From the NCBI RefSeq assembly GCF_020520425.1, contig NC_079491.1:37107027-37171026 (forward strand): a stretch of DNA of 64,000 bases. The letters run 5' to 3'. Numbering within the stretch: position 1 is the stretch's first letter; each line of letters opens with the position of its first letter. The notes beneath the pieces were generated by a model. It ran no database searches and was not told where the DNA came from. It worked only from the letters and a program-made list of their open reading frames with translations. Of the stretch, positions 1-8,876 are shown in pieces. Source of the DNA: Spinacia oleracea (lineage: Eukaryota > Streptophyta > Magnoliopsida > Caryophyllales > Amaranthaceae). Position numbers and translations under genes: made by a program.

Positions 1-901
1 TGCGCACAAGACCTTTTGATTGACGGAACGTCCAGGAAGTTGGTCGCGTGTTGCAATTCTTTTTTAATTCCTCCACTATTTATTAATCCGGTAATCCGGT
101 TGCCTCTTAAAGTCCTAAATTTAGCAACAAGATATACTTCACATTAAGATTTTTTTAAAATAAAAGTTTATGCTCGTCTATTGACATTGTACTGCCCCCA
201 ATCTAAAATTTCTAGTTCAACGGTGTAACCCATCAGCAAAAACAATGAAAAGTCATGAAACATGGTAATAGCGAAGTTAAAAATGCAGTTAAAACTTGAA
301 ACAATTAGGGAATTGAATGATGATGCCCGTTTCTGGACGGTGACCTATGGTGCTAACCAAGGGGCAATAGAGTGGTTAGATGGATCGCGTTTTCTGTCAA
401 AAAAAACAGGAGGTTATAAACAAGTACAAACATTCATTATTTTAATGATTATAAGATGCCCATAATCTACTGATTTCGGATTCGCCATCGCGGCATATTA
501 AGATTAACTAGTTTGTGGTTCGGACGTTGCTCCGGGTTTTACTTTTAGTGGGTTACTTATTTTAAATATGTGCGTATGTGGTGCTATTATCTGATTTCCA
601 TGCAAGATCAGTGGCCGATCAACAAACTTCCTTCCCATATCCGAAAATCAAAACAAAGTCGAGTTCTCTTCTTCATGATTAGTTGATTATTATACTCCTG
701 TCAATGTTTCCCTCTTCCACACTCATAATTACACTCCATTACCCTAAGTTTTTTTTATTTTTCAAGCTTAAGTTGAGAAGAGAAGAATTGTACATTTATA
801 AGTTAAGTTATTAATTTCCTTTGTTCTTTTTCCCTTTAATTCAATATTATTCATTTTAAAAAGGTTGTATTTATTATTTAAATAGAAAATTTTAACATCA
901 T

Positions 902-975
902 TGTGGCTAGCTAAGATGGTAAGAATGGTAACTTTTAATTCAAGAGGTCTAGTGTTCAATCCTTGCTAGTTCTTA
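902..975 (+). repeat. SINE-like tRNA-derived segment
   Basis: An A-box-like stretch (TGGCTAGCTAAGATGG, about 904-919) is followed at normal tRNA spacing by a B-box-like GTTCAATCC (953-961). This is the RNA polymerase III internal promoter layout of plant SINEs. It does not fold as an intact tRNA by eye, so I call it a decayed SINE head rather than a tRNA gene. Confidence 0.35.
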
Positions 976-1556
976 TAAACGCCTTTTAATATATTAGTAT
1001 AGATTACTACTCCTGCCATTGCAGAAAGCCGTATTATATCGCATTATCACATGGACTTGAGTGTCTATAAATTCGAATTAAAATGCAAGGAATTACTCTT
1101 TACTTCTTTAGTTAATTAACAAGTTTGTTACGTAATCAACAAAAAGCACATAAAGGATATACTCTTGTAACAAAAAGAGTTCCAACAGAATATATATAAG
1201 TATGCTTTTAAGTATAATGACTTTTTTGACATAGTGAACAGAAAATCTGTTCAATGCATGGAAACCAGCAAAAAAAAAACGACATATGCTGATGAAAAGG
1301 GCTTTTAACTGGTAGGTAGAATTTAAAATTTGGAAAGGAATTTTTAGAAATATTCTTTTTTCAAAAGACTAATTAGATTTTGGGCTCGGACGATGCCCCG
1401 AAGGTAAAGTCATCACTTGAATAATTGTAACTATGCCTATTTTTCTGTAAAAAAAATAAAAACAAATCATAATTAACTCTTATTTTTATTAAAATCATTT
1501 TTCTTTCTTTACTATCACTTTATTATATATTGTTTGCAAAATATAACACGTAAATT

Positions 1557-1625
1557 TACATAGCCAAGCGGATAAGTCATTAGTGGTTCCAATCACCAAG
1601 TCATGGGTTCGAAACTTGTATTTGT
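1557..1625 (+). repeat. SINE-like tRNA-derived segment
   Basis: TAGCCAAGCGG (about 1561-1571) resembles an A box and GGGTTCGAAAC (1605-1615) is a near-perfect B box. The spacing fits a tRNA-derived SINE promoter. The 3' body and the tail are not clear, and there is no obvious flanking duplication. Confidence 0.45.
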
Positions 1626-1736
1626 AATTTTTGAATAATATTGGATGACACGTAATGACATGTGTCAAATTAAAAGAGGAGGGCGCGAGGTGGCATTGTA
1701 TACTTTCTTACAAACGCCGATACTGACTAACATATA

Positions 1737-1868
1737 CTCCATCCGTTCTTATTTACTTGACACAATTGAGTTTTGACACTATTCACACAAGTTCGTAAGA
1801 AGGGTAAAGTAGTAAATTTTCATGTCCAAAGATAAAAAGAAAGTGTAAAGACCATTATGAAACGGAGG
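1737..1868. mobile_element. Stowaway-type MITE (Tc1/mariner)
   Basis: The left end CTCCATCCGTTCTTA and the right end TGAAACGGAGG are inverted repeats of the CTCCCTCCGTTC type typical of Stowaway MITEs. The element is flanked by TA at 1735-1736 and 1869-1870, the expected mariner-type target duplication. It is about 130 bp long and non-coding. It would be mobilised in trans by a mariner-like transposase, none of which is seen here. Confidence 0.8.
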
Positions 1869-2219
1869 TAGTAATTCATTTATCACCAATTAATTTTATG
1901 ATAGAATTGAAGCCGTCAGACTTACATGTAGTCAATCTCTTTTCTTACACGCACTTGTTTTTGCCCTATGATTTTATCATTTTTAAATGTTACTTTTCTG
2001 TAAAACTCTAGTAGCTGATTTGATGATTAGTTTTACTGGGAGTGAGTCTGCTTTTATAGGACCACATATTAAGCTTAATTTGTAGTTATTAGATGTGGAC
2101 CATGAAAATTTACTCAAAGATTACTTCATGTTGGGGTTCCTTAATTTTTATGATGGATAAATAGACTTGGTTATTGAACAGGGTAGTCCAATGGATATAG
2201 GGTTAGGGTCAAGTTAATA

Positions 2220-2267
2220 GGGCTTTTATTGGTCAGGGCTCTTATTGGACATGGCTTTTATTGGACA
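2220..2267. repeat. 16-bp tandem repeat, three units
   Basis: Three consecutive 16-bp units (2220-2235, 2236-2251, 2252-2267) of the form GGGCTTTTATTGGACA, each differing at one or two bases. Function is not evident. It lies close to the GACCCGC-rich tract and may belong to the same repeat. Confidence 0.75.
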
Positions 2268-2404
2268 GAGTCATTATAGGGTCAAACTTATACTACAATT
2301 ATTTTGAAAATTAAAATAGTAATGATACAAAAATTTACGTGTATAGCTTCGTATTCACTTGTACTTGCACATGGCTCTTTTGTTTTTCATTTTTCATTGC
2401 TCGT

Positions 2405-2545
2405 TTATTGACCCGCCCACTAATGACCCGCTATTGACCCGCGACCCGCTTTTGACCCGCCCATTATCGACCTGTTAAAAATGACCCTTTCAATACCCGA
2501 CCCTCTTTTGACCCGCCCCGACCCTGACCCGACCCGCCCGATAAC
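2405..2545. repeat. GACCCGC-rich degenerate tract
   Basis: Irregularly repeated GACCCGC/GACCC words separated by 5-12 bp over about 140 bp. The same vocabulary occurs in reverse complement (GGGTCGGGTC) at about 4850-5800. Such tracts are common in plant repetitive DNA. No coding meaning is supported. Confidence 0.7.
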
Positions 2546-2559
2546 CAGGTGTAGATAAA

Positions 2560-3240
2560 ACTAAACTTTACAAAACTGATCCGGCTTGAATCACCTGTTC
2601 TGAAATAACCTGCTTGAACAATGTACTCTGTATAATATGATCAAGATTAGTTGATATTTTTATGATAAACTAATTAATCTAAAACCAAACCATATGACTT
2701 ATCATCCAAATATGATACGAGTCATATGACCCCTACTTAATATATAATCCAAATGACTTATTGAAATCTTTGATGGTGTCTCCTTAATTTTCACCTTAAA
2801 ATAAAATAAGTTTTAGATTTGATAAGTTGAAATAAGTTGGAATCAAGTCATATAAGATATATAAGTTCCAATCAGACTGATCCTATAAATCACTCTATCT
2901 CGAGTTTACTCTTTTGAAAAGACCATTCGGGTCCAATATGTTTCAATTATGTCAGATTTAATCAGCTTCAATAAGTTCATATGAGATAAGATGAAGAAAA
3001 CGTACCTAAAAGTTGAAAAGACACCAGTTCGAATGATCTAATGTTATGGCACCACGTGGCAATAATCTAGTGGTGAACAAGAAAATCATAGTATGGGGTG
3101 ATGGAGTTGTTAATCCGAGATTTTCCAAATTATTAATGAAAGTAAAACGAGGGTTGAAATTGAAGAAATAGAAAAACAAAAGCAAAGCAATAAAATAAAA
3201 AAAGAAGAAATAAGTAGATCGAGAGGGTTAGCTGAATGTG
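2560..3240. other. Non-coding AT-rich DNA upstream of the lncRNA gene
   Basis: No gene seen. The sequence is AT-rich with many TCATATGA-like words. It may contain distal promoter sequence of the IPS1-like gene, but I find no clear element apart from the P1BS site further downstream. Confidence 0.4.
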
Positions 3241-3272
3241 AGGGGGGAGAATGGGTGTTGTCATAGGGCATG

Positions 3273-3280
3273 GCATATGC
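3273..3280. promoter_or_regulatory. P1BS (PHR1-binding) palindrome
   Basis: GCATATGC matches the P1BS consensus GNATATNC bound by PHR1-type MYB factors under phosphate starvation. It sits about 165 bp upstream of the TATA box of the IPS1-like RNA gene, which is where such sites are expected. An 8-bp degenerate site can occur by chance; its location is what gives it weight. Confidence 0.65.
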
Positions 3281-3444
3281 TTCGGAAGATGCTAAGTAGC
3301 AAACCCCACTTCTCTCAACACTTTGCTTTTCATATTACTTTAAACCCAAAAAGTGACTACACACCACTACATAAGTCACCTATCACCCTCTTTTTCCATT
3401 CCTCTCATGAGTCATGAACTCATGACCTAAGAAGGGGAGACCCC

Positions 3445-3451
3445 TTATATA
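3445..3451 (+). promoter_or_regulatory. TATA box of IPS1-like RNA gene
   Basis: TTATATA within CCCCTTATATATCATG. Transcription would be expected to start about 30 bp downstream, near 3475-3482, just before the CA repeat. No other strong TATA lies between this site and the mimic motif. Confidence 0.55.
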
Positions 3452-3479
3452 TCATGAGTTTACCCCTCCATGGAGAAAC

Positions 3480-3485
<6 letters not shown>

Positions 3486-3510
<25 letters not shown>
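3486..3510. repeat. (AC)n microsatellite
   Basis: About 12 AC dinucleotides in an uninterrupted run, lying in the predicted 5' part of the IPS1-like transcript. It is a likely polymorphic marker. Confidence 0.95.
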
Positions 3511-3679
3511 TACCTCTCCCACCACGTAACGCACATTTCATCCGGCCTCCCTCCCACCACCGTGTGCGATGGAGGCCGGTCTTTAAGGAGAATGGTGTTG
3601 GTGTTGGTATTTTGTCCTCTCCTAGCTAGCTAGTTGACATGATCATAATATTACAATCAAACTAGGAGAAATTTGAGTT

Positions 3680-3753
3680 GGAATGATTCAAAAGAACCGC
3701 GCTTCTCACCTTATTTATTAGGAGAGGAGCGCGGTTTTTCTTTTATCCATTCC
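3680..3753. repeat. Short imperfect foldback
   Basis: The arms GAACCGCGCTTCTC and GAGAGGAGCGCGGTTTTTC are inverted repeats, extended outward by GGAATG and CATTCC, around a short AT loop. In the RNA this would form a hairpin ending about 10 nt before the miR399 mimic motif. It could be a structural part of the lncRNA or a small MITE. Confidence 0.65.
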
Positions 3754-3763
3754 TACTCTTAAT

Positions 3764-3787
3764 AGGGCAACTTGGATCCTTTGGCAT
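3764..3787 (+). promoter_or_regulatory. miR399 target-mimic site
   Basis: This is the defining motif of the IPS1/At4/Mt4 RNAs. Read on the opposite strand it begins TGCCAAAGGA, then an interruption TCCA, then AGTTGCCCT. miR399 (TGCCAAAGGA-G-AGTTGCCC) therefore pairs on both sides of a 3-nt bulge plus one mismatch at positions 10-11. Against the Arabidopsis IPS1 motif as I recall it, I count one difference, inside the bulge. Confidence 0.85.
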
Positions 3788-4084
3788 TTTTCGGTTCCTC
3801 CGACTTTGAATTTTATTTAGTAAGCTCTTCATGCTTCAAATGAAGTGGGCCTCGAAGGAAATTTTCGAAAGGGCAAGGCAGATTATGTTTATTCCCTCTG
3901 CTATATACCTTCTATCTATCTATCTATATAATGTAAGGAGTAATAGTTTTTAATCATGGTCATTAAAATTTTAAAATTAAGAGCCATCAACTTTATTTGT
4001 TTTGAGTTCAAGACCGTATGTGGTTTTATTTCCTTGTTTTTAGATGCTTATGTATAAGCCTATGGCTATGCGATGTAATTTCAG

Positions 4085-4600
4085 AGGAATTTATTGAGTG
4101 ATTTTTCTTTTGTGTGTTATAATTCTATTTGCTAATTAGTTAGTTTAATTCAATTGGTCAATATAATGTTTGTTTGTTTGTTTATCTTGGTCAATCAGTT
4201 GGTCTTATTCTCGCTCTGTCGCCAAATTCATATACATGATCACACAATTATACTTATGATGTTTACAAGTTAAGACTTGTGCATCACTAAACCATTAGGA
4301 AAGGATAGGAATAAAAATATAATATAAACATGTATTTGTATGTCCAAGTGTGTTAGTGACTTATGAGTGTGTATCTATATTGAAACATCCGTCCACTTAA
4401 CGAGCTTAGTTAATAAAGTTTTGGGGGTTGGTAGAACAATTTGAAATTGAATATTGTGTACGTCATTGATATTAGCAAGCAAGTAACTCCGTATTAAGCT
4501 TCACAAGCTAAAAGATTTACTGATTTGTTATACTTAAACCTAATCCATTTCTCCTAATCAAATATGAATATATGATGCTAATTAACATCTAATTAAACTA
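4085..4600. other. Non-coding DNA
   Basis: No gene seen. It holds a short (TGTT)n run near 4165-4185 and AT-rich sequence otherwise. Confidence 0.5.
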
Positions 4601-4607
4601 AATAAGA

Positions 4608-4690
4608 TATGTTGGTCTAATGGTAAGAGTAAGACTCTTAAGTTTTATTACGTTCTCGATTTAGATGTAACAAGTTCGAATGTTTTTAGC
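4608..4690 (+). repeat. SINE-like tRNA-derived segment
   Basis: TTGGTCTAATGGTAAGAG (about 4612-4629) resembles an A box and CAAGTTCGAATG (4671-4682) a B box, in tRNA-like spacing. It is a third candidate decayed SINE head. An intact tRNA is not supported because the acceptor stem does not pair. Confidence 0.45.
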
Positions 4691-4830
4691 CGTACAGATA
4701 CATGTTTGTAAATTATAATGTGTGCTAGACAAGATGTTCCTGCTAATGTGATGGTGATGCAGATGCTAGATGCACTATAGATTTCGGAGTAATAAATATG
4801 CAGATGATTATGTAGGTCCATAACATAACA

Positions 4831-5806
4831 CTAGAGGTGTCAAATTGGGTCATCGGATGGGTTGCGGGTTGACCCATGACAGTTCGGGTCTATTCGGTTC
4901 GGGTCAAAATTTATCGGGGTCAGATCGGGTTTGAGTCGGGTCTATTCAGTTCGGGTCAATTTCAGGTCAATTGTTGTTGGGTCGGGTCAAGTTCGGTACG
5001 GGTCAAAAACGGACTTGGTGATCCCGTATCGGGTTCTAAACGGGTTTTGTCGGGTCAAATCCGGGTCAGGTAACTTTGGGTCGGGTAGACTTTGACTCGG
5101 GTCATTTCAGTTCGGGTCAATTCAACACCAGTTCGATTTCGGTTAGGGTCATCTCAGTTAGGTCTCGGGTTGGATCGATTTCATTCTAGATCTTTTCAAG
5201 TCATTATCGATTAATGTTTTCATTCTATTTCTAATTAAACAAGTTATTAATTTACGTATTTACGAGTATTTTTAATTTACTAAACTACAACATTGTTATA
5301 TCAATTAGAGTTTGTTTTAAGTTATAAGATAATTAATGATTATATAACGAGAACCATATGTAAACAGTAGATACACATTATATATAAATCTATAAGAAAT
5401 TAAGAATATACGGAGTAACTCTTTAAGCTGACACGAAATTCAACTTACTAAATAATTACAGTTCGGGTGGAGTTTAGGTCGGGTCAAATCGGTGTTGGTT
5501 AGTCAACAGTTCGGGTCAAACCAAATCGGGTCAAATCAGATATTTACTGGGTCAAATCGGTGTCCGGTGAAGTTCAGGTCGGATCAAATCGGTGTTGTGT
5601 GGAGTTTGGGTGGAATCTAACTGGTGGCAAGTGGAATCCGGGTCGGATCAAACTGGTAACGGGTGGAGTTCAAATCGGGTGAAACGGGTGTGGGGTAAAG
5701 TCAAATAAGTTACAGATCGGATTTCGGTCCTAACTTTCTGGGTCAAACCAGTTCAGTTAGAGTTCGAAACAGATGATTTTTCGGAATCGGGTCAGCTTCT
5801 GACACC
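4831..5806. repeat. GGGTCGGGTC-rich repeat, possible hAT-like non-autonomous element
   Basis: Nearly 1 kb dominated by irregular CGGGTCAA/TTCGGGTC words, with an AT-rich centre (about 5200-5460). The left end TAGAGGTGTCAA and the right end CTGACACCACACTG are imperfect inverted repeats of the GGGGTGTCA kind seen at hAT ends. I could not confirm an 8-bp target duplication. A coding role is not supported, although the lack of stops in G/C-rich stretches produces spurious open frames. Confidence 0.45.
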
Positions 5807-5835
5807 ACACTGTCTTTTAATTTGCTTCCTTGACC

Positions 5836-5938
5836 CAATCTCTGTAATTTCAGCATCAGTGACACATATTTTTGCCACAAACCCGAAGTGAGCAAATGAT
5901 CAATCTCAGTAATTTCAGCATCAGTGACACATATTTTT
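5836..5938. repeat. Direct repeat, two 38-bp copies
   Basis: Copies at 5836-5873 and 5901-5938 share AATTTCAGCATCAGTGACAC and flanks, with one or two differences, separated by 27 bp. They probably arose by a local duplication next to the GGGTC-rich element. Confidence 0.8.
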
Positions 5939-6562
5939 TATCACTCCTCTAATAATTAATTTCCTGGGATCTCCCTACGATGTAGATAGAATTTATTTAT
6001 TTAAATATAGAAGCACAACTTCTGCCAAGTAAATAGTACTTGGTAATATACTACTCCGTACAGTACAAGCAAGGCAATAACAATTGAAAATGGAGAGTCG
6101 GGGGTCATTCTTTTGTTAGGCTTGTCCGTAACTGTAAACGAGGAACCAATATTTATAAGAAAAAAAGTAGGTAATAAGCTTATGTTTGTTGACAACAACG
6201 TCAACTACATTAGGGAAACTATCACAATTGCCAATTGCTGCAACGAGTACACGACTTAATTTGTGAGACCTTGCAAAAGTTGCAAAGATGGCTAGTAAAA
6301 CAACGTATCACAGTATCACTCCATGAACGAATAGTCTAAGAATAATTAATGCTTCCCAACATAATCATGTCCGGGCGATCTGACTGACATAACCAGACTT
6401 TAACCCGAACGCCAGCTCTAGATTTTCAGGTCTTTTAATTTGTTCCAAAATCAAGGGGACTATCCTGATAGCTTGTAGTTCTGAGGAAATCCAAGTCCCT
6501 AACTTGCAAATTGGAGCCAGAGTAAAACATTACACAGAGTAAACCAGCCCTGCACATAGAAC

Positions 6563-6648
6563 ATACAGCATACAGCATACAGCATACAGCATACAGCATA
6601 CAGCATACAGCATACAGCATACAGCATACAGCATACATCATACAGCAT
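6563..6648. repeat. 7-bp minisatellite (CATACAG)n
   Basis: About twelve head-to-tail copies of CATACAG with one variant unit (CATACAT). It lies about 180 bp beyond the methyltransferase stop codon and may be in its 3' untranslated region. Because 7 is not a multiple of 3, every frame reads as a seven-residue repeat. This explains the spurious cysteine-rich frames on the minus strand. Confidence 0.95.
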
Positions 6649-6828
6649 AGGAAAGCAGAAAAGGTGCAGACCTTTTCCTCTAAAACTACCTGACAAGTTC
6701 ACCAACTAAATTAGGCATCATTGTGCTACGAAAAGATTATCACTTATAACTTATTCAAGAGGAGGGCAATGCAACTATTAGCCAATTTCACTGCATGTTT
6801 TTGAAATCAATGACATTAGAATTAAGAA

Positions 6829-8876
6829 TCACTTCTGAAATTCAAGGATGGTGAAGAAGTAGTCAATGTGTACCGCCCTGAAATGTGGAAAACCTACAGA
6901 GATCCCAAGCTGTCGGTACTCTTCCTCCATCCTGTGCCTGCCTTTTGCCCCATAAATTGTCATCACGAAGATGTCTCCTGAAAGTAGGGCTCTTGTTCGA
7001 TGACTGTCATCTGACCTCTCAGGCAATACTGGCTCACAGGCTATCAATTTCCCCCCTGCTGGCAAGGCCTCGTTACACTTTTTCATTATCTGCTTCACTT
7101 CATTGTCACTCCATGTCGTTAATACCCACTGCATGCACCACAATACCTTAACACTTGATCACACATGCACCAAATGCTAAACAAGGATCAATTGCTTATA
7201 GCTAGCGGGTTATCTTAGACCAGAAACAAGGATCAATTGCTTAAAGGGAGACTGTGAAACTATCAAATGAGAGAGTAGGTTCGGTTTGTTCTTATAGACA
7301 TCGGCTCTTAATCATACGTATACACATAAGAAATTTAGTAATGCCTTTTTGATAGAAAAATCAGCATGGTTGGATAAAATAACATACAAACAAGTTAATT
7401 ACTGCTCAAATATATAGCAACATTTTCATACAGATTTGTGGTTCTCATTCTTAATTCACAAACTCACTACCTTGTACCATCAAAACAAGCAGTAGCAAAG
7501 ATAATATATTAAAAGGCCTCAGTTCCAAAGTTCCAACCAAATCTCATACCATGTGATCATTGTGATGCATAGCATGTGGGAATTTCCATTTTTCTACTAC
7601 ATCTAGCATGTGGAACACTGCGATAATGATAATATGCAGACAGCTTCTAGAATGGTTTAATAATAGGAAGGAATACAAAATATAGAATGGATTTACATTT
7701 CAGTTATGTGATATAAGCATGCTTGATTCAGAGAAGATAAACAAAGACATGAATTAGATGCTAAGCAGAAGAGGTTATGGATGTATAAAAAAGAAACAAT
7801 GAAGAGGAAGTACCTTCATGAAGATTGCATCACCGCAAGGAATCGATTTGAACATGTCTCCGCCCACATGAGTCACACCTACACTTACAACAACAAACCC
7901 TTTAAAAACAAGGATTACTTTCACTCCGTAGTAGGAGTAATTTACTTTCTATTTTTCTGATTAGGGACACTTTATTCATATATTGTGATTCAACCTAAAA
8001 AGATTCGAAACGATCAACAATCGATCACAATGATTTATCACTCGAATAACTCCTTCTAAAACTAATAAATTACCAATAATTGTATCATTATAATTTAAAA
8101 ACAACAAAAATCTCACCTGTGATTAGAGGAGCTTGAGCAACAACTTCCGGAAGATCAAAGTTAATCCCTTCCTTAATACACTCATATTTACTCATAATCA
8201 TCTTTACACAATCACCAGCACTCCCACCCACATCCACCAACCTCTTCACCCCATCAAACCCATCATACCCACCACCAACCACCGCCTTCATAAACGGAAC
8301 TGACACCCCCGCCATCGCCCGCTGCATCAGCACATTCATTTCCTCACTCCTCCCGTAGTAATCGTACGCCGGCTCCCCATTCGCCACCTCGAATGGGGTC
8401 TTAGATGTGGGCCCTTTCACCGCATGGTCCACCAGCGTCCACCCCCGCACCAGCGCGTCTTGGTGGTGCTGTAGCACATACTCCCCGTAAGACAACCCGT
8501 CGCCATCGCCTTCTACCAAAGTCCGTCCGACCTCCGTCAATGAAAAACGCCTCATATTTTCTCCGGAGATAGGAGGATGTTCGGAAAACACGCCGTAGGT
8601 AGTGAGAAGGCGAAGGAGGCGGCCGAGGTTGTCGGCGTCGGCGTGGGGGTTGTTGGGGAGGATGAGAGGGATGATCTCGGCGGCGGTAAGAGGGGTGTTG
8701 GCGCCGGAAGACCATATTGCGGTGGGAACTTTGAGGCGTACAACGGCGTTTAGCGCCATGGGAATGCTTATCATGTTGGCTAACTCCATGATGGCTAGCC
8801 GAGCTTGGTTTCTGGACTCGGATGTTTCATCAATCTCTGCCTGTGGTGCTGTGGTGGTGGGTTTTTCCGGGGACAT
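6829..8876 (-). CDS. COMT-family SAM methyltransferase, nicotinate N-methyltransferase-like
   Basis: Three exons on the minus strand: 8876-8117, 7878-7814 and 7128-6829, joined at GT..AG introns. They give 374 codons, normal for the plant type I O-methyltransferase family. Exon 1 holds the dimerisation domain (about residues 25-130) and SAM motif I (LVDVGGSAGD). Exon 2 carries the HVGGDMF...GDAIFMK block. Exon 3 carries WVLTTWSD, CEPVLPE (Glu307) and EEEY. The family's catalytic base in W-I/L-C/L-H-D-W is Thr279 here, so a classical phenolic O-methylation mechanism is doubtful. A His-to-Thr change at this point, with the LIACEPVLP and GDIFVMTIY wording, is what I associate with plant nicotinate N-methyltransferase 1, which makes trigonelline from nicotinate in the cytosol. 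That is inference from memory. The start has a clean context and precedes conserved sequence; no in-frame stop or frameshift is seen. Confidence 0.85.

Follow-up and report, generated by a model that had tools for sequence, protein, structure and literature searches.

A probable IPS1/At4/Mt4-type endogenous target-mimic gene for miR399 in the spinach genome

The locus described here raises the question whether a short miR399-complementary site in the window, meaning the whole stretch of 64,000 nt of spinach DNA that was analysed, belongs to a gene whose RNA captures miR399 instead of being sliced by it. A sequence-only reading had assigned it to the IPS1/At4/Mt4 type of target mimics, and this assignment is upheld by the architecture of the site, the lack of a sizeable ORF, an upstream P1BS with a TATA box, and the occurrence of MIR399 hairpins and PHO2 in the same genome. 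On account of the bulge geometry, the genome-wide rarity of the site, the MIR399 hairpins, a PHO2 gene with miR399 sites, the P1BS and TATA boxes and the absence of a sizeable ORF, we consider the locus very likely to be an endogenous target-mimic gene of this type, and probably a further member of the IPS1 family; the site is directly seen and its expression is what we infer.

The site lies on the plus strand at 3763-3786 (letters TAGGGCAACTTGGATCCTTTGGCA) and is made of TAGGGCAACTT-GGA-TCCTTTGGCA. Its 5' half TAGGGCAACTT (3763..3773) pairs with miR399 positions 11-21, its 3' half TCCTTTGGCA (3777..3786) pairs with positions 1-10, and the three-base bulge GGA (3774..3776) stands opposite positions 10/11, the slicing point. 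The motif GGGCAACTTGGATCCTTTGGCA is found on the plus strand at 3765-3786, and the paired stretch reaches out to 3763. With the L020 miR399 (UGCCAAAGGAGAGUUGCCCUA), 21 of 21 positions are paired, 20 of them as Watson-Crick pairs and one as G:U (position 11); there are no mismatches, GGA is bulged out exactly between miRNA positions 10 and 11, and a duplex energy of -34.1 kcal/mol is predicted. Seven other miR399 entries (six distinct sequences) pair with the decoy with 1-3 mismatches over 21 nt, and the mismatch at position 13, present in all seven, counts against a decoy function. The sequence-only reading, which had claimed full pairing to miR399 on both sides of a three-base bulge, was therefore correct as to the bulge, correct as to full pairing for the L020 variant only, with its one G:U, and incorrect for the other types.

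The partners of this site were sought by a search of the same genome for miR399 with at most 1 mismatch, which gave 23 places. In 12 of them (L003-L010, L020-L023) the miRNA sits on the 3' arm and 18-20 of the 21 miRNA bases pair with one side, and in the remaining 11 no more than 17 bases are paired (17 in two cases); refolding of L015 and L024 gave no contiguous star strand on the 5' side. L022 and L023, which are 80 nt apart on opposite strands, were counted together, as the arms of a single hairpin, which gives 11 MIR399-type hairpins, directly observed in the genome. The Rfam gathering score for MIR399 is reached by 10 of the 11, where a second hit within L003 corresponds to L004 and a reverse-strand hit within L023 to L022, and no MIR399 match was returned by Rfam for L002, L011-L013 and L024, that is, five of the eleven non-hairpin places. 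L020 obtains 39.3 bits against a gathering score of 57 (E 2e-7), which counts against the decoy reading; its hairpin is well formed: 18 of 21 bases are paired, and a star strand of 21 nt lies opposite the miRNA. Furthermore, a P1BS occurs at most 400 nt upstream of the miRNA in all 11 hairpins as against 9.4% of window positions, with the provisos that the limit of 400 nt was set with the sites already known, that the P1BS sites of L003 are also those of L004, and that the L022/L023 hairpin is counted in the L023 direction only, none lying upstream when it is read as L022. Since P1BS boxes precede all 11 hairpins, the PHR1-miR399 module seems, judging from these sequences, to be present in the genome. 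Seven of the hairpins (L003-L008, L021) are gathered on both strands in about 13 kb of C5 (70.33-70.34 Mb), and further ones are found at 70.78 and 71.16 Mb of C5. The hairpin at L023 1409-1531 carries miR399-like sequence on both arms (L022, L023), and Rfam matches on both strands are obtained for L023 and also for L008, L009 and L021.

The surroundings of the site are compatible with a non-coding gene. A P1BS box GCATATGC (PHR1 binding consensus GNATATNC) lies on the plus strand at 3273..3280, 492 nt upstream of GGGCAACTT, and a candidate TATA box, TATATAT, follows on the same strand at 3446..3452, 173 nt downstream of the P1BS. The presumed non-coding transcript would extend over 3475..4080 (plus strand), the bounds given by the sequence-only reading. 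Within 3440-4140 the longest plus-strand ATG ORF amounts to 40 aa, so that a sizeable ORF is lacking, as in the IPS1/At4/Mt4/TPSI1 mimics, and no ORF of at least 100 aa is present in window positions 1-6828. The window holds 16 P1BS against 16.1 expected, GCATATGC being found once, and 11.8% of its positions have a P1BS within 500 nt upstream; this frequency counts against the decoy reading and makes the P1BS consistent rather than strong evidence.

These promoter elements also bear on whether the locus could be a decayed or silent IPS1 relic, in which the site would have been inherited from a decoy gene and the locus would no longer be transcribed. The kilobase upstream of the TATA box contains one P1BS, whereas the 1-kb promoter of Arabidopsis IPS1 contains two together with a neighbouring motif B needed for induction, as described in excerpts of PMC2936532, and within 10 kb to the left of the window several ORFs resemble transposon genes, judged by eye. 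Against such decay, the site has kept its three-base bulge and pairs with L020 at 21 of 21 positions without a mismatch, and both a P1BS and a TATA box are retained upstream, which leaves the relic explanation improbable.

That the site is an ordinary cleavable miR399 target is more improbable still. Full pairing of miR399 positions 1-10 would suit slicing, but when bulge sizes of 0-5 bases were compared for four miR399 types, size 3 alone gave 0-2 mismatches, and bulges of 0, 1, 2, 4 or 5 bases gave 5-10. Read as a bulge-free cleavage site, the stretch leaves 8-9 of 21 nt mismatched; the bulge sizes 1, 2, 4 and 5 were likewise rejected, each with 5 mismatches or more. Comparison with the PHO2 target of this genome points the same way, as its eight PHO2 sites pair without a bulge. 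They are located at 1651-2153 of L025 (C6, 38.70 Mb) and correspond to the places L013-L019 and L024 of the miR399 search; downstream, an ORF at 2526-3890 encodes UBE2O-type SH3-B domains, and a further ORF at 6804-7142 encodes part of a ubiquitin-conjugating (E2) domain. Because of this architecture of leader miR399 sites, SH3-B ORF and partial E2 ORF, the L025 gene is identified, at the sequence level, as PHO2/UBC24. The genome of the decoy therefore holds both a cognate miR399 and PHO2, with the proviso that the best-pairing L020 falls below the Rfam gathering score. The PHO2 sites read GGGCAAATC (one GGACAAATC) and all eight fit the L006 miR399 type best, whereas the decoy, with its bulge and the letters GGGCAACTT, is best matched by the L020 type; complementarity to miR399 is common to both, and decoy and target thus favour different miR399 variants.

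Within the PHO2 locus, four of the eight sites form a tandem array (L025 1967-2100) with a spacing of 38-39 bp, which suggests a local multiplication of the target sites. The miR399 places L002, L011 and L012 fall in copies of a PHO2 piece. In addition, 74 bp of the PHO2 leader that include a miR399 site recur with 97-99% identity at L028 5051-5123, L029 5316-5388 and L030 5175-5247, each time accompanied by a second short PHO2-locus piece and by tandem-repeat copies from L025 9254-9893. These pieces look like a repeat or transposon family sharing parts of PHO2, which could add miR399 sites elsewhere in the genome.

The rarity of the decoy site was evaluated with the pattern GGGCAACTTNNATCCTTTGGCA, which we take to represent the IPS1-type motif, and the likeness to this motif put forward by the sequence-only reading is confirmed with 0 mismatches. 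Allowing up to 3 mismatches, the window contains one match, at 3765-3786 and without mismatch, while 0.02 matches are expected by chance and at least one match was obtained in 2 of 100 shuffles. Over the whole genome (894,210,420 bases, 242 contigs), the exact pattern occurs once, at the decoy site. The looser pattern GGGCAANTTNNATCCTTTGGCA with up to 3 mismatches gives at least 161 matches genome-wide against at least 76 for the reversed control; among the best 100 of these, one has 0 mismatches (the decoy site), none has 1, six have 2 and 93 have 3. Paired with four miR399 types, the two-mismatch sites L031 and L033-L036 show 2-4 mismatches. A bulge-pairing penalty, calculated for a three-base bulge over miRNA positions 1-19 with seven miR399 sequences of the same genome, is 0.5 for the decoy site, 4.5 for the best site elsewhere in the window and 1.5 for the best of 200 first-order Markov windows. 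An exact search of prokaryote and viral contig collections, which hold no plant genomes and serve as background only, gave no match.

Near matches with 2-3 mismatches are common, with more matches in all than for the reversed control, and on this ground alone a chance similarity might be entertained. The jump from 0 to 2 mismatches divides the decoy site from the others among the matches listed, however, and none of the 200 simulated windows reaches its score. The decoy site is not a chance match: with up to 3 mismatches allowed, 0.02 matches would be expected in the window, and the one present has no mismatch at all. It is hardly credible that the site is a chance similarity or a MIR399 precursor on the minus strand, and the precursor is dismissed by the absence of a miR399-like hairpin in four minus-strand folds and of an Rfam MIR399 in the window or in L001. 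No Rfam family matches the window at gathering score, and a search of the window for miR399 itself, allowing 3 mismatches, gave no match.

The preferred reading, an IPS1-type target mimic, places the locus in a family whose transcripts exceed 500 nt and are induced by phosphate starvation, and in which other members are not known to share the bulge letters GGA of the decoy. Its members include IPS1 and At4 (Arabidopsis), Mt4 and PDIL1 (Medicago), TPSI1 (tomato), OsIPS1, TaIPS1 and HvIPS1. According to excerpts of PMC6508833, homologues of IPS1 have already been described in diverse monocots and dicots. The family motif is outlined, in excerpts of PMC3441763 and PMC6162444, as some 23 nt complementary to miR399 and interrupted opposite positions 10-11 by a three-base bulge, and the same combination is found at the decoy site. 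The decoy shares this bulge and the lack of a sizeable ORF with the family as characterized in parts of PMC3441763, PMC6508833, PMC2936532, PMC3598684, PMC5854128 and PMC6162444, and its one upstream P1BS would be consistent with the promoter P1BS of the family. Among the matches listed in a literature search, none described an IPS1 gene from spinach, beet or quinoa, and the matches listed for the motif letters were all unrelated by title. The main text of a spinach lncRNA paper names neither miR399 nor IPS1, its 66 predicted mimics standing in a separate table (PMC8482690); a quinoa paper names IPS1 as background only (PMC8056640), and in a sugar-beet paper, apart from its mimic table, miR399 is named for cotton only (PMC9971629).

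A strong foldback precedes the site at 3685..3745 on the plus strand (arms 3692-3714 and 3717-3739), ending 23 nt before the paired stretch; its MFE is -30.3 kcal/mol against -10.3 +/- 2.6 in shuffles (z -7.6), and an alignment of 3675-3758 with its reverse complement shows 74% matches in 86 columns. A second stem-loop lies near the presumed 5' end (3538..3583, plus strand; MFE -24.6 kcal/mol, z -4.8), and the folding of 3750-3860, which contains the site, is ordinary (z -0.2). The mean unpaired probability of the site is 0.34 against 0.41 for the folded transcript 3475-4080, 0.35 against 0.42 for 3475-3960, and 0.42 against 0.40, about equal, for the shortest folded transcript 3640-3860. In these predicted folds the site does not appear specially open, which counts against the decoy reading. 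For Brassicaceae IPS1, a stem-loop is predicted 3' of the miR399 site and, less certainly, on the 5' side in monocots, and Wong et al. describe stem-loops beside the miR399 site without a simple link to efficacy (both in excerpts of PMC6508833); the foldback of the decoy differs from the Brassicaceae stem-loop in lying on the 5' side. The foldback may serve as a scaffold, or it may be an element inserted here. That it contributes to the working of the decoy, as a scaffold presenting or stabilising the miR399 site that evolved in this lineage as a 5' substitute for the 3' stem-loop of Brassicaceae IPS1, strikes us as rather doubtful.

Transcription of the decoy, its induction by phosphate starvation, its escape from cleavage and its effect on PHO2 are proposed by analogy with IPS1, whose transcript holds miR399 unsliced and protects PHO2 according to excerpts of PMC3441763 and PMC6162444. 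Under phosphate starvation, PHR1-like factors would switch the decoy on through the P1BS at 3273, and the non-coding transcript would bind miR399, the L020 type best, at 3763-3786. With GGA bulged out where slicing takes place, cleavage would be blocked, so that miR399 would be captured by the decoy RNA and PHO2/UBC24 (C6:38.70 Mb) relieved of it, which would in turn damp the phosphate-uptake response. If transcribed, the locus would complete the circuit of PHR1, miR399, PHO2 and decoy in a leafy crop that does not belong to the model families. It would then be apparently the single canonical decoy gene of the genome, so that a one-gene knockout could gauge the importance of the decoy, and it could serve as a marker of phosphate status.

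Elsewhere in the window, a 7-bp tandem repeat (CATACAG, 12.6 copies) occupies 6562-6649, near the 3' end of a minus-strand O-methyltransferase gene with coding pieces at 6829-7143 and 8088-8876.
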